Below are positions 2,732 to 35,325 of a stretch of 40,685 nucleotides of DNA, piece after piece (the stretch's first letter is position 1; each line of letters begins with the position of its first letter). The stretch lies in contig NZ_CP092523.1 in NCBI RefSeq assembly GCF_022430525.1, forward strand, positions 1 through 40,685, in the 5' to 3' direction. The notes beneath the pieces were generated by a model. It was given only the letters and a program-made list of their open reading frames with translations. It was not told the origin of the DNA and searched no databases. The translations under genes were made by a program, and so were the position numbers. This DNA comes from Cetobacterium somerae. GTDB taxonomy: Bacteria; Fusobacteriota; Fusobacteriia; Fusobacteriales; Fusobacteriaceae.

Positions 2732-5338
2732 ATGTCTCAAAAATTTAAAATAATTATAAGAGTGGTTATCTCCTTTAGTTTAGGAGCTATTTTTAATAAA
2801 GTTTTTAGTTTCACTAATAGGTTAGTTGGATCTACAGACCAATATAGTTATGAGGTTCCATTTATTTATATTTTAACGATATCTGATATCTTAGCTGTAC
2901 TTACAATAACATCAATAATAGGGATGTTTTTATATTTTTATTTTAATAAAAGTAAATCTAGTCAAAATGATATTTCTAAAATCTATAGATTGATTATTGA
3001 AAGTGAAATTTTATTATTTTCGTTTGTTATTGGAACTTCAAAATGGCAAAAAATTATTTCTAAAGATATATTTAATATTAATCAATTACTAAACAATCGT
3101 AGTTTAAATGAGATTATATTACTTTTTATTTTTATAGCTTTTTCTTCAATTGTTTTATCAGCAAATGAAATAAAGAGCAAAAAACCTGTTAAATTATATT
3201 CTTCAAGAATTTCTTTATTGGGAACAATTGATGAATATTTAAAAAGTATGAATTCATTTTCAATAATAGGAGAATGGGGAATTGGAAAAACCAAATTAAT
3301 TGAAAACTTTTTTTATGGAGATTATAAAGATTCAGATGAAAAAGAATTTAAGAATAAGTATGAATTATTATATATAGATGCATCTATTTATACGAATAGT
3401 CAAAAAATAATAGAAGCAATAGAAAGTGATTTAAATTTAATTTTTAAAAATTATGGAATTTTAAAAAAAAATACAAGTTTTATAGATGAGTTATTTATTG
3501 AAAATAATACTTTTCTAAAAACTATTTATAAATATATATTTTCAAATAAAACAGTAAATGAAGAAAAATATAAAATTGAAAAAAGAATTAAAGATATCAA
3601 AAAAAATTATGAAAAAGATATAGTTATTTGTTTAGATAATTTAGAAAGATTGAATTCAAAAGAAAAAATTATTGAGTTATTTGCAATAATAAATGAGATT
3701 TTTCCAAGTAATGTTAAGAAAATTTATATTTATGAAGAGAAAGAAATGATTGAATTATTTAAAGATAATAGTTTAAAAAATTTAAAATTCTTGCTTAAGA
3801 ATTATATAAATGATTACCAAGAAATGGATATTGTAGAAAAAGACTCGAATCAAATTTTTTTAAAATATATTGAGAAGTACACTTTTAATAAGATAGAAGT
3901 CAAGAATATAAGCATGGAAGAAATTTTAAAAGATAAAGAAACTGCCAAAGAAGTTATAGAGGAAATTATAGAAAAATGTAATAATTCAAACAAATTTATA
4001 AAATTAGTAGAAAATGTAATTAGCAAAAATTATACCGGGAAAGATGAATATATAGAAAATTTAAAAAAAGATTTTAATATAAAATTAAATGAAATAAAAA
4101 ATAGATTAAGAAATCCAAGGTATGTAGATAATTTTTTAAATTATTTAAAAGGTAGTCAGCAGAAAGAAGAGGAATATAAATATAAAATTCAATATAAGAT
4201 AACTCGAGATTTTTTATTGTCTATTAATAGAGAAAATATAAAGATAAAAGATATCTCTTCTAATATGTTATTTAATGCAGGTGATGCTTTTGAGTTATCA
4301 TTATTTGAAAAATCAAGAAGTATTAAAAATGAAAAAATTGGAGCGGAAGGATTAGAGAAACTTTGTTATATTTATCTTTTCAAAATTGATGAATATGGAC
4401 AAAACGTAAGTGACTTTGCAAAAAAAGAGAGTTATTTTGAAATTTTTTTTGAAAATAAAAAAATGATTGAACAAGCAGAAGAATTTGAGAAATTAGAAAA
4501 ATTTAAAAAAAATCCTGAGAAAAATTTATTAGATATTATTAATCAAATAATTTTTCTTTATCCAGAAGAGTTTGTAAAAAAAATCAAAGATTATTTAAGA
4601 ACTCAAGAAACTTTAAAGTATATAATATCAGTATCAGATGATTTAAGTAAATTAATATATTTAGAAAAATTGGTTGAGTATTCTGAATTTCTTCTTCCAA
4701 AAATAATTTTAAATGAAAACGGTAAATACTCAGATGGAGGAAATAAAAAAGAATTAGAAGAATATCATTCCATTTTGACAAAGGTTTATTTATTAAAAAA
4801 TAATTTTATTAAAGATTTAATTCAAATTATGAATAAAGAAGAATTAAAAGATTTTTATAAATTAGTTCCAAATAATTTTAATGAATTTCTTAAAACAAAA
4901 TTAAATATAGAAACTTTAGAAGAGTTTATTGAAATTTTATTAAAAAAAACTGATGAGAATAAAGAGATTTTAGATAAATTAAAAACTTATGAAATAACAA
5001 AAAAATCAATAGAAACTTTAAAAAATATTAATAATTTAAAAAAAGATAGATTTCAGGTAGAAGAAAAAGTTTTAAAAATTTCTGATGAACTTTTAAAAAC
5101 AAGAAAAATAAATATACTAGAAGCTATTTCTGATAAAGGAGACTATTTAGAAATACATGATAGCTATTCTTATGAAGAGATAATAATAAAAAAAACTGAA
5201 ATAGATACTTATATAGAAGAATTAGAAGAAAGAGGAGAAAAAAATCAGAAATTAATGGAAGGAATAAGGACTATAATTATAGAGCTAGATAAATTTAAAA
5301 AGAAAGTTAGGGAGTTAAATGGAGAAACAGGAGTATAA
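2732..5338 (+). CDS. Membrane-anchored KAP-family P-loop NTPase, first gene of a putative defence operon
   Basis: An 868-residue protein with four predicted membrane segments in the first 145 residues (about 7-25, 43-70, 88-103 and 124-142), then an NTPase domain: Walker A GEWGIGKT at 180-187 and Walker B DIVICLDNLER at 296-306. The remaining 500 or so residues are charged, helix-rich and likely the sensor or partner-binding part. KAP NTPases with membrane helices are known from phage exclusion (PifA) and from Qat-type defence systems. The gene is preceded by GGGAGGG, and its end overlaps the next gene, a PD-(D/E)XK nuclease, by 20 bp, which argues for translational coupling. A shorter paralogue spans the circular junction (39994-886). 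Recognition is good; the defence role is inferred from family and operon. Confidence 0.85.
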   Translation: MSQKFKIIIRVVISFSLGAIFNKVFSFTNRLVGSTDQYSYEVPFIYILTISDILAVLTITSIIGMFLYFYFNKSKSSQNDISKIYRLIIESEILLFSFVIGTSKWQKIISKDIFNINQLLNNRSLNEIILLFIFIAFSSIVLSANEIKSKKPVKLYSSRISLLGTIDEYLKSMNSFSIIGEWGIGKTKLIENFFYGDYKDSDEKEFKNKYELLYIDASIYTNSQKIIEAIESDLNLIFKNYGILKKNTSFIDELFIENNTFLKTIYKYIFSNKTVNEEKYKIEKRIKDIKKNYEKDIVICLDNLERLNSKEKIIELFAIINEIFPSNVKKIYIYEEKEMIELFKDNSLKNLKFLLKNYINDYQEMDIVEKDSNQIFLKYIEKYTFNKIEVKNISMEEILKDKETAKEVIEEIIEKCNNSNKFIKLVENVISKNYTGKDEYIENLKKDFNIKLNEIKNRLRNPRYVDNFLNYLKGSQQKEEEYKYKIQYKITRDFLLSINRENIKIKDISSNMLFNAGDAFELSLFEKSRSIKNEKIGAEGLEKLCYIYLFKIDEYGQNVSDFAKKESYFEIFFENKKMIEQAEEFEKLEKFKKNPEKNLLDIINQIIFLYPEEFVKKIKDYLRTQETLKYIISVSDDLSKLIYLEKLVEYSEFLLPKIILNENGKYSDGGNKKELEEYHSILTKVYLLKNNFIKDLIQIMNKEELKDFYKLVPNNFNEFLKTKLNIETLEEFIEILLKKTDENKEILDKLKTYEITKKSIETLKNINNLKKDRFQVEEKVLKISDELLKTRKINILEAISDKGDYLEIHDSYSYEEIIIKKTEIDTYIEELEERGEKNQKLMEGIRTIIIELDKFKKKVRELNGETGV

Positions 5339-6569
5339 GTTATTTTTTGAGAACTTAGATTTGATAAAAAGAAAATATGATATATTACATAGCTTTGAAG
5401 ATGAGTTTAATATTTTTTCTATTTTGAGAAATGAAAGAGATGAAGTAAATTTGCATTCCAAATTTATAGGTGAACTTTTAAAAAATAAAAGTTTCGGAGA
5501 TATTTTCTTGAAGCTTTTTTTAGAAATTTTAGAGATTGAAATAGAGGAAAAGCTAAATAAAAGTATCTACTTAGAATATGGAGTAAGTGATAATGGAAGA
5601 ATAGATATTCTATTAAAAATTAATTCTAAAAGCTTTAAAAGAGTAGTTATTATTGAAAATAAAATAGATGCTGGAGATCAATGGCAACAACTTCAAAGAT
5701 ATGTAGAGGCTATGAAAAAAGAGGGATATTCCAAAGATGAAATAACTATTATTTATTTAACTTTAGCTGGAGAGACACCTTCTAATTATAGTTTAGGCTG
5801 CATTCAAGATGAGGAAGTTATAAAGCTATCTTATAAAGAGCATATAATCTCTTGGATAGAGAAATGTATAAAAGAGGTTGCTGCGGTTCCAAGTTTAAGA
5901 GAAACTTTGATTCAGTATAAAAAACTTTTAGAAAAACTAACAGGTAAAGGGGAGAAGAAAATGATAGATGAACTAAAGGAGATGATACTTTCAAAGGAAA
6001 AATATCTATCTGCAGCCTATTTAATACCAGATATTCTTTTAGAAATCAAAAGAGTTTTACAATATAGATTTTGGGAAAAGTTAGAAGTAGAAATGGAAAA
6101 ACTAAATTTAAAAGAAGTTAAATTTGAAGATGAATTTAATACTAAATTTGATTTAGATAAAGTAAATAAATTTTATACAACTTCAACAAATAAAAGATTT
6201 TATGGAATAATGTATGAAATTAAAGAATTAGAAGATGGGAATAAGTTATATTTAAGAATAGAAGTTAACCATAATATTTATTTGGGATTAAGGGTTATAG
6301 ATAAAGATGGGAATTCTAATAAAAATTTAGATAAACAATATTTAAATAGAAGTTTAAAAGAATTTGGATTTACTACTAATAATATGTGGTTAGGATGGAG
6401 ACATTGTTATTTAGATGAAACCTCTTTAGAAACTATAAATTTTAATAAATTTGATGCAAAACTAGCTGGTATTTTAAGAGATGAAGATAAACTTAAAAAA
6501 TTAGTTGAATCTATTGTAGTGAGTATAAAAAAGGATTTGGATAAATTAAAAGAAAATGAAGTAATTTAA
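5319..6569 (+). CDS. PD-(D/E)XK nuclease family protein (PDDEXK_4 type)
   Basis: A 416-residue protein. The N-terminal half has the nuclease signature: Asp96 in GRIDILLKI, then Glu113 and Lys115 in VIIENKIDAGDQWQQLQRY, the typical D...ExK followed by a Q-rich helix. The fold cuts DNA using a metal ion. The C-terminal half (about residues 215-416) is a separate region of unknown role containing YLRIEVNHNIYLGLRV and NNMWLGWRHCYLD. The start codon lies inside the end of the KAP gene, so the two are probably made together; the next gene follows after 13 bp. I infer that the nuclease is the effector of a KAP-controlled defence system. Confidence 0.85.
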   Translation: MEKQEYKLFFENLDLIKRKYDILHSFEDEFNIFSILRNERDEVNLHSKFIGELLKNKSFGDIFLKLFLEILEIEIEEKLNKSIYLEYGVSDNGRIDILLKINSKSFKRVVIIENKIDAGDQWQQLQRYVEAMKKEGYSKDEITIIYLTLAGETPSNYSLGCIQDEEVIKLSYKEHIISWIEKCIKEVAAVPSLRETLIQYKKLLEKLTGKGEKKMIDELKEMILSKEKYLSAAYLIPDILLEIKRVLQYRFWEKLEVEMEKLNLKEVKFEDEFNTKFDLDKVNKFYTTSTNKRFYGIMYEIKELEDGNKLYLRIEVNHNIYLGLRVIDKDGNSNKNLDKQYLNRSLKEFGFTTNNMWLGWRHCYLDETSLETINFNKFDAKLAGILRDEDKLKKLVESIVVSIKKDLDKLKENEVI

Positions 6570-6582
6570 AAAGGAGAAACTT

Positions 6583-7008
6583 ATGAACTTAAAAGATTTA
6601 CAACAAAAATATTGGAGTACTTTTATAAAAGTAGCTTTAATAAAAAGAAAATTATCTTCAGATGAATATAGACTAGTTAAAACGGCTGGTATAGATGTTG
6701 CTATTTGCAAAGATTATCACTTGTATATTTCTACAGATAGTAGAAAAAAAACTTTGACTATAAAGGTTTACATTGATAGCAATAAAGAATACTATAAACT
6801 TTTTGAAAGTAAAAAATTAGAAATAGAAGATCAAATTGGATCTAAATTAGAATGGAGAAATTTAGAGGATAATAAATCAAGTATGATTATGAAAAGTGTG
6901 GAATTTGATATATATAATGAAGAATCGTGGGGAGATTCAATAAATTACTTATTATCAGAAATTCCTAAGTATATAGAAGTTTTTAAAAAATATGAGCATA
7001 GTATATAA
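6583..7008 (+). CDS. DUF4268-domain protein
   Basis: A 141-residue protein preceded by AAAGGAG. The stretch KKTLTIKVYIDSNKEYYKLF followed by QIGSKLEWRNLEDNKSSMIM matches my memory of the DUF4268 domain, which often stands alone or fused to restriction-like nucleases. Its biochemical role is not known. Being third in the KAP-nuclease operon, it may be a subunit or specificity partner of the nuclease. The domain call is from pattern memory, not from a search. Confidence 0.65.
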   Translation: MNLKDLQQKYWSTFIKVALIKRKLSSDEYRLVKTAGIDVAICKDYHLYISTDSRKKTLTIKVYIDSNKEYYKLFESKKLEIEDQIGSKLEWRNLEDNKSSMIMKSVEFDIYNEESWGDSINYLLSEIPKYIEVFKKYEHSI

Positions 7009-7066
7009 GCAGGATATTAAGAACTATATCAAAATATGTTAAGGAAATTGTAATATTGGAGGTAGA

Positions 7067-8266
7067 ATGAAGTCAGAGTATTCATCTAATCAAATTTTAG
7101 AACGAAAATCGATTCATTATATAGAGGGAAAGTGTATAAATTTAAAGTGGAAATATCGTCAATATGATCAAGATAATGATGTTGATGGAGAGATAGAAAT
7201 ATTTGAAGAAGAAGAAAGTTTATTAAAAAATATAACTAAATCTAATTACATAAAAGTTCAATTAAAAGCTCAACAAAAGGTTGATAAAAATGAAAAATTT
7301 GTAAGATTTTCTTTAAAAACAAAATTTATCAAATTTATAAAAGAATGCCAAGTTCCTTTAATTTTGATAGTTTATGATGAAAGTGAAGAGAAGGGATATT
7401 GGGTATTTTTACAAAGGTATTATAGAGAAAATAATTTAGACGAAAGTTTAAATCAACTTGAGAAAACTATATATATACCAATAGAAAATACTTTAGAAGA
7501 TATAGACTTGTTTAAAAACGAAATGTTAAAATTATCAGAAGATGGTTTGTTAGAAATATTATTAGAAAATAAAAAAATAAATTTGAATGAATGTTATGAA
7601 ATCATAGAAACAAAAGATATATCATATGCAGGTAGAGTTAGAAAAACAATGAGCGTTTATATAAATAATTTATTTTTAAAAAATGAATATATTTTAAATA
7701 AATTATTGATTAGATTAGAAAATGAACATATAAAGAATGATATCAATTTTAGAGAAAGTAATAAGTTAGTGGATGAACTAACTATATTTGTTTATAATTC
7801 TTTGATAAAAATTGGGAATTTTGCTGCTTTATTTAGATATGAAGTAATAAATAATAACGGAAAATACAATAGAGCTTTGATAGATTTGAATAAGCTTGAC
7901 TATAATATAGAGACATATTCCAAAGGGGAATATTTACAAATAGCATTGATTAGTTTTTTAGAGGCAACAAAGATTACCACAAATTTATACAATTTAAATA
8001 ATGTTAAAACAAATATTATAAAATATGAAAAAGATATTGAAGAAATATATTTTGGATTTATAGATAGATCAAAAATAGCTCCTTTAGAATGTAAAAAATT
8101 AGATGAAAGTTTTTTACAATATATAAGTTTACTTGATAATTTTAAATTCTACAAAGAGGATCATTATAATGATTATTATATAAATAAAAAAATTAGTGAA
8201 TTAAAACTTAAAGAAATAGAGGTAATTGATTTAATGAAAAAGCAAATTCAAAGTATTTATATATAA
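7067..8266 (+). CDS. DUF4365-domain protein, nuclease-like, last gene of the putative defence operon
   Basis: A 399-residue protein with GGAGG before the ATG. The first 150 residues look like DUF4365, a restriction-nuclease-like fold: the acidic motif is DVDGEIEIF (Asp38, Asp40, Glu42) and the core strand is YIKVQLKAQQKV (Gln65, Lys67), replacing the usual ExK with QxK. After that comes GYWVFLQRYY, also typical of the domain. The C-terminal 250 residues are helix-rich and not recognised. The gene follows the DUF4268 gene by 58 bp in the same direction and is the last before the GC-rich non-coding island, so the operon would carry two nuclease-like proteins. Confidence 0.7.
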   Translation: MKSEYSSNQILERKSIHYIEGKCINLKWKYRQYDQDNDVDGEIEIFEEEESLLKNITKSNYIKVQLKAQQKVDKNEKFVRFSLKTKFIKFIKECQVPLILIVYDESEEKGYWVFLQRYYRENNLDESLNQLEKTIYIPIENTLEDIDLFKNEMLKLSEDGLLEILLENKKINLNECYEIIETKDISYAGRVRKTMSVYINNLFLKNEYILNKLLIRLENEHIKNDINFRESNKLVDELTIFVYNSLIKIGNFAALFRYEVINNNGKYNRALIDLNKLDYNIETYSKGEYLQIALISFLEATKITTNLYNLNNVKTNIIKYEKDIEEIYFGFIDRSKIAPLECKKLDESFLQYISLLDNFKFYKEDHYNDYYINKKISELKLKEIEVIDLMKKQIQSIYI

Positions 8267-22892: not shown

Positions 22893-24242
22893 TTAATATC
22901 TTAATACCAACCCTTTTACAAAAACATTTAAAGCTGGGATATTTAAATGAAGAGGTTCTATATTGTCTTCACTCCATAAGGCTTGAGAACGCAAATACTT
23001 TTGTCTAATGTTAGTGCTGTTTGAAATTCCTTTCATAAATGTGTAAACTATATCATCATTGGATTCAGTGGAGATTATAATAGAATCTTTACCTAATTTT
23101 TCCATAGGTAAAAGATTATGACCTGTAAAAATAAGTTGCCCTTTAGCTAAAGGAGCCATTGTTTCTAATAACACAGCTAACAGGTATTCAAATATATGAA
23201 TATCTAGCTCATCTATAACAATAATAGCTTTTTCATTTTGTATATATACAATTAAAATAGATAAAAGAGATACAAGTTTAATTGTACCTGTAGATTCTAG
23301 TGTTAAAGGGATTTTGATACCTTTTTTTACCAGGAACAAGTTGATAGCAGTTCTTTCATCATTTTCATCAACTCCAACAACTTTTTCTTCAAGTATAAAC
23401 CTAGAATCAGGAATAATAATCGAAAGAAGTTTATCTATATTTTTAGCAGCTCTTTTCAAAGAGTCTACATCATTTTTATTAAAAATATTATCTCGAGTAG
23501 AGTAATTTATAGTATCTAAATCTGAACCATCTCCATAATTGATAGGAATAACAAGTGTATCCTTATAAAGAGCTTGTTTTGATAGAGTAACTACAACAAT
23601 ATTTTTAATTAAATTTTCAACTATTTTTAAATTTTCAAGTGAATCTTTTAGGATTTTAAATTTAGGATCTTCTAATTTTTTTATATCAGTATGTAAGAAT
23701 GAGCTCAAGAAAAAAGTGTTCAAATTACTAAAGTTTTTTAACAGTTGCTTAAAGTTTGACGTATCTAAAAAATCAATCAAAATATTAGAATTTGTTGTAT
23801 TTGTTCCTCCTATAAAAATCTCTGGTAATAACAGTGTGTCATCATTTTTAATCTTAGCTATATGTTGAAATTTACGTCTAGCTTTAGATTGCTTTTGAGA
23901 AAACTCCTCTCTAGAAACAAAAATTCCGCCGTTACTATCTTTGACGAACTCCACTAAAACTTTGAAATCAGTATCTTCATGAACAAAAATAGCTTCAATA
24001 ACCATATTTTGTGTACCTATAGTCATAAGCTTTAAAATTTTATCTAAAACCTGGTTATTATTTATATATTTAGAAGTATTACTAAAATATAGTTTTAAAA
24101 CTTCTAAAGCTTCTAAAGCTTCTATAATAGATGTTTTTCCCGTTCCATTAGGACCATAAATTCCAGATAAATTACTACGGAATTCTATTATACTATTTTT
24201 TATATTTTTAAAATTTTCCAATCGAATTTGTTTTATATTCAT
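22893..24242 (-). CDS. AAA15-type ATPase (SMC/OLD-like), probable defence protein
   Basis: A 449-residue ATPase. Walker A is GPNGTGKT at residues 30-37, after the typical opening IKQIRLENFKNIKNS. The second half has a signature-like segment (PLTLESTGTIKLVSLLSIL), Walker B AIIVIDELDIH and a switch TGHN. These match the AAA_15/AAA_21 group found in abortive infection proteins and in RloB-paired ATPases. No nuclease domain and no RloB gene are present. It lies between an orphan antitoxin and a HepT/MntA pair. The start is the ATG at 24242; a GTG at 24254 is possible. Partner and trigger are unknown. Confidence 0.85.
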   Translation of the reverse strand: MNIKQIRLENFKNIKNSIIEFRSNLSGIYGPNGTGKTSIIEALEALEVLKLYFSNTSKYINNNQVLDKILKLMTIGTQNMVIEAIFVHEDTDFKVLVEFVKDSNGGIFVSREEFSQKQSKARRKFQHIAKIKNDDTLLLPEIFIGGTNTTNSNILIDFLDTSNFKQLLKNFSNLNTFFLSSFLHTDIKKLEDPKFKILKDSLENLKIVENLIKNIVVVTLSKQALYKDTLVIPINYGDGSDLDTINYSTRDNIFNKNDVDSLKRAAKNIDKLLSIIIPDSRFILEEKVVGVDENDERTAINLFLVKKGIKIPLTLESTGTIKLVSLLSILIVYIQNEKAIIVIDELDIHIFEYLLAVLLETMAPLAKGQLIFTGHNLLPMEKLGKDSIIISTESNDDIVYTFMKGISNSTNIRQKYLRSQALWSEDNIEPLHLNIPALNVFVKGLVLRY

Positions 24243-24303
24243 TTTTATTCCCACTTTCTAAAAATATATTTTATCATAATTTTACAAAATAATTATATAA
24301 AAA

Positions 24304-25229: not shown

Positions 25230-25406
25230 TTGTCGATAGAGAATAAAGAAGAATTTCTATGACATCGACAGATGTAGGAAAGTGTAGCAGGGAGAGTGGT
25301 AATTTAATTTTAGCACAAACTTAATTCTAACTTTTATGAAAAACCTATCTGTTCGACATATTGGACAGTTAAAATCATCAACTATAGATAGTTAAAATCA
25401 CTGCCA
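25230..25406 (+). promoter_or_regulatory. Probable CRISPR leader
   Basis: About 180 bp of AT-rich DNA before the first intact repeat. It contains an inverted repeat TGTCGAT...ATCGACA (about 25230-25267) and two direct copies of AGTTAAAATCA (25367-25377 and 25390-25400) 23 bp apart. The other end of the array has a decayed repeat, which puts the leader on this side. Promoter boxes are not clear. Confidence 0.5.
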
Positions 25407-25612
25407 GTCTATATCCACAATAGTGGAATTATAACATCTCAACATCATCATGTGAATACAAGACTTTATGTCTATATCCACAATAGTGGAATTATAACTC
25501 AACATAAATTATTATGTTTTTATCAATTGATGAGTCTATATCCACAATAGTGGAATTATAACTTAACCAATTTGCCGTACCTTTTCTTCTTGCAAATGTC
25601 TATATCCACAAT
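25407..25612 (+). CRISPR. Short CRISPR array of type VI (Cas13)
   Basis: Three identical 29-bp repeats at 25407-25435, 25470-25498 and 25534-25562, and a fourth cut off after 15 bases (25598-25612). The repeat begins GTCTATATCC, has the hairpin CCAC-AATA-GTGG, and ends GGAATTATAAC. The three spacers are 34, 35 and 35 bp. The truncated repeat marks the distal end, so transcription is probably on the plus strand, towards the cas13 gene that runs on the minus strand. No cas1 or cas2 is present, so new spacers cannot be gained without help. No spacer matches the rest of the plasmid by eye. Confidence 0.93.
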
Positions 25613-31352: not shown

Positions 31353-32144
31353 TTAAACAATATTTAATCTATAAATATTTGCATAAAAATAAAAGACAGG
31401 ACTATAGCTTGGCAAAAACTCAGAAACAGTTTTTTTAATAGCTTCTACGACTTTTAATATACCGTATTTTTCTATGGCTGGAATTATAATTTCACTCATA
31501 TAATTTTTAACATCTTCAAAAGTTTTTTCTATACGTTTTTTCAAAATTAAATTTTGAGAAATACTATCCTCTATTTCAGAAAAATATTGTTGAAAATTTT
31601 CTATATTTTCAGCACTCATTTTTTCTATATTTCTATCCCTTTCTATAAGGTTTCTATATTCTATTATTATATCTGCTAATTTTGACAGGTCTTCCCCTGA
31701 ATTTGACAGAAGGTCTGTGAGATTTAACACATCTTTTGCTGTTTTTAACAGCCCCTTTGTAAAAATTGACAGATGGGTATTGTTAAATTTATCAGATGCC
31801 GTTTCTATTTTTTTCCTCTCTCCTAGTTTTTCTAAAAAAAACATAACTGACCACCCTTTTGGTGTTAAAGAGTAGGAGAGGGAGTTACTCACAGATTTAT
31901 GTATTTGGTCTACTTCAATAAGGTTTAGGGCAATTAACTTTTTAGTAATGCTTCTAATAGTTGTGTAGGAAAAATACTCCTGGTATTCTAAAATATTTGC
32001 CCTAGACATAGTGATAGATATATTGAGATTCTTATCAATCTTTTCTTTAAGCAGATTATTTTTGCAAAGGTAATAAATGTTTTGTAAAAAAATAGCTTCG
32101 TTAATTCCTATTTTAGTTGCTAATTTTTCGTGGAAAAAATGCAA
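31353..32144 (-). CDS. Winged-helix replication initiator-like protein with origin repeats in its gene
   Basis: A 263-residue protein. I chose the TTG at 32144 because AGGGAGG lies six bases before it; a GTG 14 codons earlier has no such site. The N-terminal part (about 1-110) is a winged helix: HEKLATKIGINEAIFLQNIY, then ISITMSRANILEYQEYFSYT, TTIRSITKKLIALNLIEV and SNSLSYSLTPKGWSV. This resembles DnaD-like and RepA_N-like plasmid or phage initiators. The C-terminal part is helical. The middle of the gene holds five repeats of a CTGTCAAA-type motif at an exact 21-bp step, suggesting that the origin lies inside the gene. The family assignment is by pattern only. Confidence 0.65.
   Translation of the reverse strand: MHFFHEKLATKIGINEAIFLQNIYYLCKNNLLKEKIDKNLNISITMSRANILEYQEYFSYTTIRSITKKLIALNLIEVDQIHKSVSNSLSYSLTPKGWSVMFFLEKLGERKKIETASDKFNNTHLSIFTKGLLKTAKDVLNLTDLLSNSGEDLSKLADIIIEYRNLIERDRNIEKMSAENIENFQQYFSEIEDSISQNLILKKRIEKTFEDVKNYMSEIIIPAIEKYGILKVVEAIKKTVSEFLPSYSPVFYFYANIYRLNIV
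31682..31772 (-). repeat. Five 21-bp iterons inside the replication gene
   Basis: On the plus strand the motif TTGACAG or TTAACA(G/C) starts at 31682, 31703, 31724, 31745 and 31766, a strict 21-bp step equal to seven codons. On the coding strand it reads CTGTCAAA, CTGTCAAAT, GTGTTAAAT, CTGTTAAAA and CTGTCAATT. The use of CTG for leucine, rare in this plasmid where TTA is normal, and the local GC rise suggest selection on the DNA. An origin within an initiator gene is known for RepA_N plasmids and lambdoid phages. Confidence 0.6.
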
Positions 32145-32609: not shown

Positions 32610-32921
32610 ATGTCTATGACAGTTGGTGGTGCAAAAGCAGTAATTGAAGGAGTTATCATTAAAACTGAAAAAAGTATTGAAAGAGAAGTTACTTACTTAA
32701 AGGAGTTAGCAGATGATAAAGCTGCTCTATCTCACATTCAACAAAAAGAACTTGATGGAGAACCGTTACCTGCTACAAGTCCATATGGAAGTTATTCTGA
32801 ATGGAAAGATCAAATTGAAAAGGAGATTAAAATATCTCAAAACTCTTTAGATAGAATCGATGTAGAAAAGGCTGAGTTGATGGCTTTTAACTACTTTGTT
32901 CAAACTGCTCCTGAGGAGTAA
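32610..32921 (+). CDS. Small plasmid protein of unknown function
   Basis: A 103-residue protein with GGAGG before the ATG. It begins MTVGGAKAVIEGVIIKTEKS and is mainly helical and charged, with a Gly/Pro/Ser/Tyr turn (PATSPYGSYSEWKDQIEK) in the middle. No family is recognised. A second small gene follows after two bases, so the pair is co-translated. It is a candidate for plasmid maintenance or copy control. Confidence 0.75.
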   Translation: MSMTVGGAKAVIEGVIIKTEKSIEREVTYLKELADDKAALSHIQQKELDGEPLPATSPYGSYSEWKDQIEKEIKISQNSLDRIDVEKAELMAFNYFVQTAPEE

Positions 32922-33153: not shown

Positions 33154-34974
33154 TTATTTTAATTTTTTTACAATTACTTCATTTATCTCTTCTAAAGTTA
33201 TATTTTTTGTAATAATTTTAGTTCCTAATTCCAATAAAGTTTCTTTTTTAATCTCTTTTAATCTCTCTTCAGAAAGATCAAAAATATTTCTATAAAGTTC
33301 AACATTTGTACTAATATAATCAGTATAATAGTTTATATCATCTATTAAACTTAAATCCACATTTTTTTCTTTTGGAATCTCTTCAATAACTGATTTTGGT
33401 TTCTCACTTTTTAGGAGATTATTTTTTAAAATATACTCAGCAATTAATCTATTCTTAGCAGCATTAAAAGCTAATTTTTGAATTTTAGTTTCTTGGCCAC
33501 ACTCTTCTATGTATGCTCTATAAACTTTTTCTTGGAGTTTTTCTTTTTCTTCAGATGACAGAGCTGAAAAATATTCTAACTCTCTTTCATAATTTTTCGG
33601 AGTCTCATCTTTATTTAAAAACTCCTCAGAAGCGTTTAAAACATCTTTTTTAGGCGTTTGTATTACAATAGCCTCATCTTCACACCAATTATTCTCCAAA
33701 GCTTTAATAAAGTATGCTCTGACCTTTTCAACTTTATTTTTTTTCATGTATATAGCTACTGATTCAACTTTTGTGTATCCATATTCTAAAATTGCCTCTT
33801 TAATAGTTTTTGGCATAGTTTTTAAACTTCTTGCTTTACTTGGCATAAGTCCTAAAATTTTATCAATCATCTCTTGAGTTACAATTACTGTAGATTCTAT
33901 TGGAGTACTCTTTTCAATAATTTCAGCATCCTCTATCATCTCGTGTTCTGTGTCACTAACAGTTGTTTCTGTTAATAGTTTTCTAAAATCATTTCGGTCT
34001 TCAAAAAATCGCTGTTGTTTCTCCTCTTTTGATTTTTCATGAAAGAAGATCTCAATCTCTGATTTTTCCCACGTCGATTCTTTTATTATTTTAAAATCCT
34101 CTATTAAATTTTTATTTTTAAGTTCTATAAAAGCTTTTTCCAAAGTTTTAATAGTATGTGCTATATTTCTTTTATCATATTTTAGTGGTATTCTTTTTAT
34201 TAAAAACAAACTATCAATATTTAAGTGAAGATTATCAAATCTAAGTTTTTCTATTAACATATAAATTGTTCTAGCAGTACTAGTTCCTATATCTAAAAGA
34301 ATTCCTGAGTTATATACCATATATCCCTTTTGAATAATATTGCTATAGAAATGATCTGAAATATTTATTTCATAAATTTCTTTAATCCTTTTATCTGGTA
34401 TCTCTTTTCTATATTTTGAGTTTTCTTTCAAAGAAAGAGTTATTATTTTTAAAGATAGTATTTGAGTACTAATTTCTTCTTTTATAACTCCTTTTTTCTC
34501 TGACGAATACATTGTATTTTTAAAATTATAATTTGTTTCTGATAATCTTAAAAGTGAATTTTTAATAACAGTTCCATAAGAAGCATTTGAACCTATTTTT
34601 AATTTATCTCTAAGTTCTGTTGAGGTAACCATAAATTTTTTTGGCATTCCTCTTTCTTTCATTATTTGCATTAAAGCTATAAAAATTTTTTCTTCCATCT
34701 CTCCTGGAATATAATTCCCAGCTGAAGGTTTAACTGTTATGTAAGTATCTCGATTTTTATTAAAATAATACTTAATTATTTGGTTTATTTTTCTCTTTGT
34801 ATTTTTAGAAAAGATAGGGAACTGAACAATATTTATGTCCATTCTTACAAGATTCTTATTTTTTATAAAAGATTCTTCTATATAAAAATTTTCCTCTACA
34901 ATTTCTGTTTCAGGTGTATCTATAACTTCTTCCCACCAAGGAGTATTTTTTTTTGTAACTTCTTTCTTAGACAT
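33154..34974 (-). CDS. Large replication initiator protein (RepA-like)
   Basis: A 606-residue protein. The start is the ATG at 34974 after GGAGGA; the ATG nine codons upstream lies inside an iteron copy and has no ribosome-binding site. The region of about residues 40-310 resembles initiator domains: NYIPGEMEEKIFIALMQIMK, VTSTELRDKLKIGSNASYGT, LSETNYNFKNTMYSSEKKGV and LLDIGTSTARTIYMLIEKLR. The C-terminal half is charged and helical and includes repeats of acidic patches. Upstream are five regular 22-bp iterons plus weaker copies, as expected for the binding site of this protein. It probably drives the second origin. I am less sure of the family than for the Rep_3 gene. Confidence 0.8.
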   Translation of the reverse strand: MSKKEVTKKNTPWWEEVIDTPETEIVEENFYIEESFIKNKNLVRMDINIVQFPIFSKNTKRKINQIIKYYFNKNRDTYITVKPSAGNYIPGEMEEKIFIALMQIMKERGMPKKFMVTSTELRDKLKIGSNASYGTVIKNSLLRLSETNYNFKNTMYSSEKKGVIKEEISTQILSLKIITLSLKENSKYRKEIPDKRIKEIYEINISDHFYSNIIQKGYMVYNSGILLDIGTSTARTIYMLIEKLRFDNLHLNIDSLFLIKRIPLKYDKRNIAHTIKTLEKAFIELKNKNLIEDFKIIKESTWEKSEIEIFFHEKSKEEKQQRFFEDRNDFRKLLTETTVSDTEHEMIEDAEIIEKSTPIESTVIVTQEMIDKILGLMPSKARSLKTMPKTIKEAILEYGYTKVESVAIYMKKNKVEKVRAYFIKALENNWCEDEAIVIQTPKKDVLNASEEFLNKDETPKNYERELEYFSALSSEEKEKLQEKVYRAYIEECGQETKIQKLAFNAAKNRLIAEYILKNNLLKSEKPKSVIEEIPKEKNVDLSLIDDINYYTDYISTNVELYRNIFDLSEERLKEIKKETLLELGTKIITKNITLEEINEVIVKKLK

Positions 34975-34995
34975 TAAATATCCTCCACTTTTTTT

Positions 34996-35175
34996 CGTCA
35001 TTACCCAATGAGATTTTTATAAAGTATCCATTTTTTTATTAAAAATATCATTATATAATAACGAAACTTTCATTATATAGTTACGATTTCTCTAATTTTA
35101 ATCTTTTTTTTTATAAAAATCAAATTTTTTTTAAAGATATCATTATATAATAACGAAATCTTATTATATTATATA
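34996..35175. repeat. Scattered iteron-like repeats before the large rep gene
   Basis: Looser copies of the origin repeat: CGTCATTACCCAATGAG (34996-35012, inverted, near the start codon), and TCATTATATAATAACGAAA-like copies near 35047, 35070 and 35140. The inverted copy beside the gene is likely an operator for self-regulation. AT-rich DNA between them may be the unwinding region. Confidence 0.7.
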
Positions 35176-35196
35176 AATATTCTCTTAAAAACAGTA

Positions 35197-35306
35197 GATA
35201 TCATTGGGTAATGACGAAGATATCATTATATAATGACGAAAGTCTCATTAGGTAATGACGAAAGTCTCATTATATAATGACGAAACTATCATTGGATAAT
35301 GACGAA
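35197..35306 (+). repeat. Five 22-bp iterons of the second origin
   Basis: Direct repeats start at 35197, 35219, 35241, 35263 and 35285, an exact 22-bp step. The form is TCATTATATAATGACGAA, with the inner bases alternating between ATATAA and (A/G)G(G/A)TAA. The part TCATTATATAATGA is itself a palindrome. They face the large rep gene and lie 19 bp from the shared origin motif. Confidence 0.9.
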
Positions 35307-35325
35307 AGATAAAATGATATATAAC

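Follow-up and report, generated by a model that had tools for sequence, protein, structure and literature searches.

Organisation of the locus

The window, by which we mean the whole contig examined (G000:C5), comprises 40,685 bp at 25.9% GC from a genome of the Cetobacterium group, and its ends do not overlap with each other. Its minus strand carries a gene for a winged-helix (WH) protein, in which the following features were delimited:

31353..32144, minus strand: WH gene, putative initiator, 263 aa from TTG 32144, in an ORF open to GTG 32186
31785..32144, minus strand: N-terminal WH domain plus the first part of the linker, as far as the iterons (AlphaFold, WH matches in the PDB)
31668..31772, minus strand: five 21-bp iterons with half-sites TGT...RCA (dyad TGTN/NACA)
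31752..31772, minus strand: iteron 1, CTGTCAATTTTTACAAAGGGG
31731..31751, minus strand: iteron 2, CTGTTAAAAACAGCAAAAGAT
31710..31730, minus strand: iteron 3, GTGTTAAATCTCACAGACCTT
31689..31709, minus strand: iteron 4, CTGTCAAATTCAGGGGAAGAC
31668..31688, minus strand: iteron 5, CTGTCAAAATTAGCAGATATA, its end being the conserved CAGATATA
31611..31676, minus strand: presumed unwinding element, AT-rich, GCAGATATAATAATAGAATATAGAAACCTTATAGAAAGGGATAGAAATATAGAAAAAATG..., with ATAGAA five times
31353..31610, minus strand: coding stretch of the C-terminal helical domain, mostly at pLDDT 50-75

Translation likely starts at TTG 32144, behind GGGAGG, rather than at GTG 32186, since the ATG start and Shine-Dalgarno sequence of the homologues match there. 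The WH domain occupies residues ~15-120 in the numbering of the long ORF. In an AlphaFold model built from six sequences, whose mean pLDDT of 55.5 means low overall confidence, blocks at pLDDT 58-84 over residues 21-120 form this domain, and residues 121-194, the middle encoded by the candidate origin, are poorly predicted (pLDDT <50). Comparison of the model with the PDB returned WH matches of a generic kind, among them TubR (4asn, Z 9.2); the RepA structures 4pt7 and 4pql (Z 9.3, rmsd 7.6-8.6) were tied with MarR-type WH proteins, and function was not deduced from any of the TubR, MarR or RepA matches.

Sequence searches of Pfam, NCBIfam and the PDB with the WH protein gave no meaningful family. 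It had no Pfam match to Rep_3 (PF01051/PF21205), which other genes of the plasmid do match, to RepA_N (PF06970) or to the phage O family models, and no RepA chain matched it by sequence in the PDB search. Tblastn against plasmids and phages reached only E 0.3-0.9 at best, and the PHROG 'replication initiation O-like' (phrog_678) only E 0.032. The profile of phrog_11233, a phage replication initiation protein, matched residues 16-198 at E 5.6e-8, and all six close family members match it; the phage connection was reached through distant relatives of the protein, described below. No helicase-loader gene was recognised beside the WH gene.

The gene is adjoined on several contigs by one for a 103-aa protein (MSMTVGGAK..., here at 32610-32921) that has no Pfam match and is also found on further contigs, including the large C1 of the same genome. 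Elsewhere on the plasmid, genes for an AAA ATPase, a PD-(D/E)XK nuclease and a DUF4365 protein stand in a row (2732-8266) and are possible defence genes, as is one for an AAA_15 ATPase (22893-24254). A 265-aa protein with a penicillin-binding transpeptidase domain (PF00905; 8933-9730) has the size of a class D beta-lactamase, and an intergenic 64-bp tandem repeat of 2-3 copies lies at 25406-25612.

Repeats in register within the coding sequence

Read on the plus strand, the array presents TTGACAG at 31682, 31703 and 31766, TTAACAG at 31745 and TTAACAC at 31724. A preliminary description of this DNA had reported five TTGACAG/TTAACA motifs at an exact 21-bp step, and we confirmed the pattern as TTRACA(G/C), with four in-register 21-bp pairs against 0.08 expected and none of 100 shuffles reaching four. 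It is the spacing that departs from expectation, the abundance of the motif being at chance (11 occurrences of TTRACAG across the window against 11.5 expected). The array lies deep within the gene, ~370 bp from its start, and is absent from the output of Tandem Repeats Finder and of a repeat finder because its units are too divergent.

The same description had linked the motifs to CTG leucine codons, which holds for four of the five codons, the remaining one being GTG; CTG is indeed rare on the plasmid, at 18 of 766 Leu codons (2.3%) in 17 other ORFs. A local rise in GC was likewise found (0.36 against 0.28 for the gene), but it continues past the array to ~31930 and so is not confined to it.

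As TTGACA is the canonical -35 hexamer, the repeats could be read as a set of sigma-70 -35 boxes or as some other signal for transcription. Homologues, however, have TTCGACA or TTTGAACA-like variants in place of the motif, and we give this reading practically no credence. No promoter-like site using any of the five motifs was found. An RNA element was also considered and set aside, as there was no Rfam match.

Selection on the DNA of the array and the AT-rich stretch

We compared the window gene with five related genes (L002, L003, L004, L008 and L009; 49-60% protein identity) and permuted the synonymous codons of each gene so that its protein stayed the same. The window gene gave 117 unit-to-unit matches against a shuffle mean of 91.6 (P 5e-5). 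For the homologues, the shuffles gave 0/20000 in L008 and L009,.001 in L002,.006 in L003 and.04 in L004, where the iteron signal is weak. As the six genes are related and not independent, P values pooled over them are too small, but the result for the window gene reaches significance by itself.

The codons responsible can be located within the unit. Of the 30 units of the six genes, 25 have Leu or Val at position a of the heptad, and the third base of the codon is G in 24 of these 25, against 27/215 Leu/Val codons outside the array; at position e, Thr and Ala are encoded by NCA (ACA or GCA) in 23 of 24 cases, against 55/122 outside. Together these biases spell a TGT...ACA dyad with half-sites 11 bp apart, the symmetry of which exceeds the shuffles in five of the six genes. 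Even L004, with Trp at three of its five a positions, keeps the final G (TGG).

Protein heptads alone, forming a coiled coil or amphipathic helix with the DNA repeat as a by-product, would explain why the step is seven codons and why Leu or Val recurs at position a in 5/6 genes, and the structural model does place helices in the array-encoded part (pLDDT <50). Shuffles that preserve the protein nevertheless fail to give the unit similarity, the NTG codons or the TGT/ACA dyads, the 22-bp repeats of distant relatives encode a non-repeating peptide, and the conserved AT-rich stretch beside the array is left unexplained. We consider this account very improbable. Synonymous change under the heptads, to which the preliminary description had looked for a check, proved not to be free in the five homologues. 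The Leu/Val...Thr/Ala heptads would rather be the by-product of TGT...ACA recurring in frame every 21 bp, with the origin-encoded linker (residues ~121-194) serving mainly as a spacer.

Across the six genes, synonymous sites are most strongly conserved right behind the array on its downstream side, from 31694 to ~31613 (GCAGATATAATAATAGAATATAGAAACCTTATAGAA...), in a stretch that adjoins the array beyond the span considered in the preliminary description and was absent from it. Where the amino acid is conserved here, 95-100% of codons are identical, against ~55% expected (z up to 9.6), with counts in successive overlapping windows of 100/104, 111/117, 113/119, 112/118 and 87/87. All 27 Ile codons of the AT-rich stretch in the six genes are ATA, compared with 53/154 elsewhere. 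In five of the six genes ATAGAA occurs five times, and likewise in five of six the 50-bp segment of lowest stability in the gene starts 5 nt short of the array's end. Such a stretch has the appearance of an unwinding element next to iterons, and it would presumably complete the anatomy of an origin.

Judged by synonymous codon use, the iterons and the AT-rich stretch are under strong selection as DNA, independently of the protein. The earlier proposal of an origin inside the gene is supported by this constraint together with the adjoining element, which makes the gene a candidate for carrying its own origin.

A shared layout in distant relatives and phages

Distant genes of Fusobacteriaceae were assigned to the same family by profile comparison (94%, E 1e-7) and match phrog_11233 at E 1e-9 to 1e-37. 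Their in-gene repeats, of 21-22 bp, begin right behind the WH domain and give way to 12-bp AT-rich repeats. A 22-bp step breaks codon phase, and the repeat in these relatives therefore cannot be a protein repeat and is a feature of the DNA. The codon-shuffle test was clear for L030 and L032, borderline for L028 and L029 and negative for L027; an autocorrelation test found no significant in-gene array in L027, Vibrio 1.213.O or NIIg9.7. On the L028 contig, a nearly identical 9-bp tandem repeat (ATGCAACAT / GCAACATAT) at 1853-1898 and 4064-4107 flanks a stretch with the phage-type initiator gene and two ORFs, perhaps a mobile or satellite element of small size.

Phage homologues adjoin DnaC-like or primase/helicase genes, and several have the same layout, with significant 22-bp arrays in Flavobacterium and Bacteroides phages and a weaker 24-bp array in phiLdb. 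CAGATATA is common to the window family and the phages, at 12 and 14 bp respectively from the last TGT. Scanning IMG/VR with ATACCAGATATAAACACAGATATAAA returned 17 contigs, with the pattern mid-gene in a WH initiator gene in 17/17 and significant 22-bp iterons just upstream of it in 15/17; as the pattern was derived from these phages, the counts gauge how closely the element is linked to the array and do not measure the frequency of either. The core TGTCRAA appears in the iterons of many of these contigs, as in the window family. In these diverse viral contigs (L071-L087) ATACCAGATATAAACACAGATATAAA, which encodes PIPDINTDI, always follows the WH domain. A scan of IMG/VR with ATAGAAACCTTATAGAA returned 11 contigs, and a peptide-pattern search of the same collection confirmed no relatives.

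These findings bear on a further reading of the array, as a set of sites for autoregulation or plasmid partition (an in-gene centromere) and not for replication. WH proteins such as TubR bind tandem repeats, TubR is among the (generic) structural matches, and the plasmid has a ParA/ParB-like pair besides its other replicons. An AT-rich element with the strongest synonymous constraint, however, fits unwinding and not a centromere or operator; the family is that of a phage replication initiator, adjoining helicase genes in phages; and the sites lie a long way, ~370 bp, from the start of the gene. We regard a role in autoregulation or partition as decidedly unlikely.

Genome G002 holds three divergent copies of the WH gene (L022 10026-10838, L023 2155-2967 and L024 1208-2008), which differ in iteron variant (TGTCT/TGTTC, TGTCGAA and TGTCA/G) and in recognition helix, and which are possibly compatible replicons. 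We tentatively propose, as a picture that we think may well prove wrong in part or whole, an initiator family of several phyla with an in-gene origin, composed of TGTC-type iterons, 12-14 bp and a CAGATATAWA melting element, in which DNA-level selection dictates the linker. In the Cetobacterium plasmid branch the step would have gone from 22 to 21 bp and become frame-locked, and the iteron variant (TGTCAA, TGTCGAA, TGTCT/TGTTC) would vary together with the recognition helix, so that G002 would hold three replicons that can be told apart.

Other replicons on the plasmid

Two further genes bring the contig to three candidate replicons. A Rep_3 gene at 1498-2676 has its own 22-bp repeats at 1313-1416, and a 615-aa Rep_3-like gene at 33154-35001 has 22-bp repeats at 35198-35308; the region upstream of the latter (35014-35308) combines the 22-bp repeats with a 92-bp tandem repeat. 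All seven listed C. somerae plasmid records carry relatives of the 615-aa gene, as do 11 of 12 Cetobacterium genomes. This type is found on many Cetobacterium contigs that lack the WH gene, and on L022 and L026 it is accompanied by the WH gene and a short antisense ORF. The detrended cumulative GC skew has its minimum at ~35-36 kb, ~4 kb from the array, which weakly favours the repeats of the 615-aa gene.

The array could accordingly be a former origin, one that came with its initiator from a phage or phage-plasmid but has ceased to drive replication of the plasmid. The presence of two other replicons, a skew minimum nearer to one of them, and distant copies that stand alone on chromosomal contigs would all suit such a history. 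Against it, the ORFs and the DNA-level constraint are intact in 6/6 genes at 49-60% protein identity, which means that selection on the DNA element has continued, and we think a defunct origin unlikely. An embedded origin, even if functional, need not be in regular use on this plasmid, and we put the chances of such use at roughly even; the WH-gene replicon is probably an extra or conditional one beside the two Rep_3-type replicons.

Discussion

The layout of the gene and the constraint on its synonymous sites make it very likely that the WH gene encodes a phage-type replication initiator with its own theta-type origin mid-gene. By analogy with lambda (PMC7466680), SPP1 (PMC6316719) and pSK41 (PMC5703833), the WH N-terminal domain would bind the TGT/ACA half-sites as a multimer, this binding would melt the adjoining ATAGAA-repeat element, and the C-terminal helical domain would recruit the host helicase or primase.

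Origins within initiator genes form an established class, to which lambda O, SPP1 gene 38 and pSK41 rep belong (others listed are pAD1, pSX267, pAMbeta1, pLS32 and pSK1; PMC3155836). The iterons of this class lie between the DNA-binding and C-terminal domains, as they do here, and its adjoining AT-rich element is present here as a sequence feature. In SPP1, oriL lies in gene 38, for the replisome organiser G38P, with initiator-bound direct repeats in the gene and an AT-rich unwinding element (PMC6316719). Direct repeats and an AT-rich element within the initiator gene are common to both, the binding being predicted in our case, and the likeness is one of layout. SPP1 also differs in having its own loader (gp39) and helicase (gp40), whereas no loader was recognised beside the window gene. 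The lambda ori, with iterons and an AT-rich tract in the middle of gene O (PMC7466680), has four iterons against five 21-bp sites here, and the WH gene has no adjoining P-like partner.

In pSK41 rep, an N-terminal domain of residues 1-120 binds Rep boxes at the centre of the gene, and a linker of residues 121-199 is encoded by the origin (PMC5703833), much as the WH domain here extends to ~120 and is followed by a putative origin-encoded linker at ~121-194. RepA_N plasmids are nonetheless unlike this one in that PF06970 is unmatched, and the structural resemblance is that of generic WH domains. The chimaeric rep of pPR9 is a plasmid initiator whose N-terminal domain and origin resemble a phage replication protein (PMC5703833); it differs in being staphylococcal and in keeping the pSK41 C-terminal domain. 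The phrog_11233 initiators of Lactobacillus, Flavobacterium and Bacteroides phages, together with the chromosomal copies in Fusobacteriaceae, share with the window gene the WH domain, the in-gene iterons and an AT-rich element started by CAGATATA, but their step is 22 bp (24 in phiLdb) and their element codes for PIPDINTDI, compared with 21 bp and an ATAGAA-repeat element here.

Thus, while origins in initiator genes are already known, what is new is the fusobacterial plasmid family, the frame-locking of its 21-bp iterons and the signature it shares with phages of several phyla. A literature search whose coverage largely left aside subscription papers returned none joining Cetobacterium, plasmid and iteron. 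The analysis locates a candidate compact one-gene origin for Cetobacterium plasmids and illustrates that synonymous-site analysis can expose origins hidden in coding sequence. It also points to a sequence signature by which in-gene origins might be recognised in phages from several phyla. Should iteron variants change in step with recognition helices, the family would offer a natural series from which to read the recognition code of these initiators.
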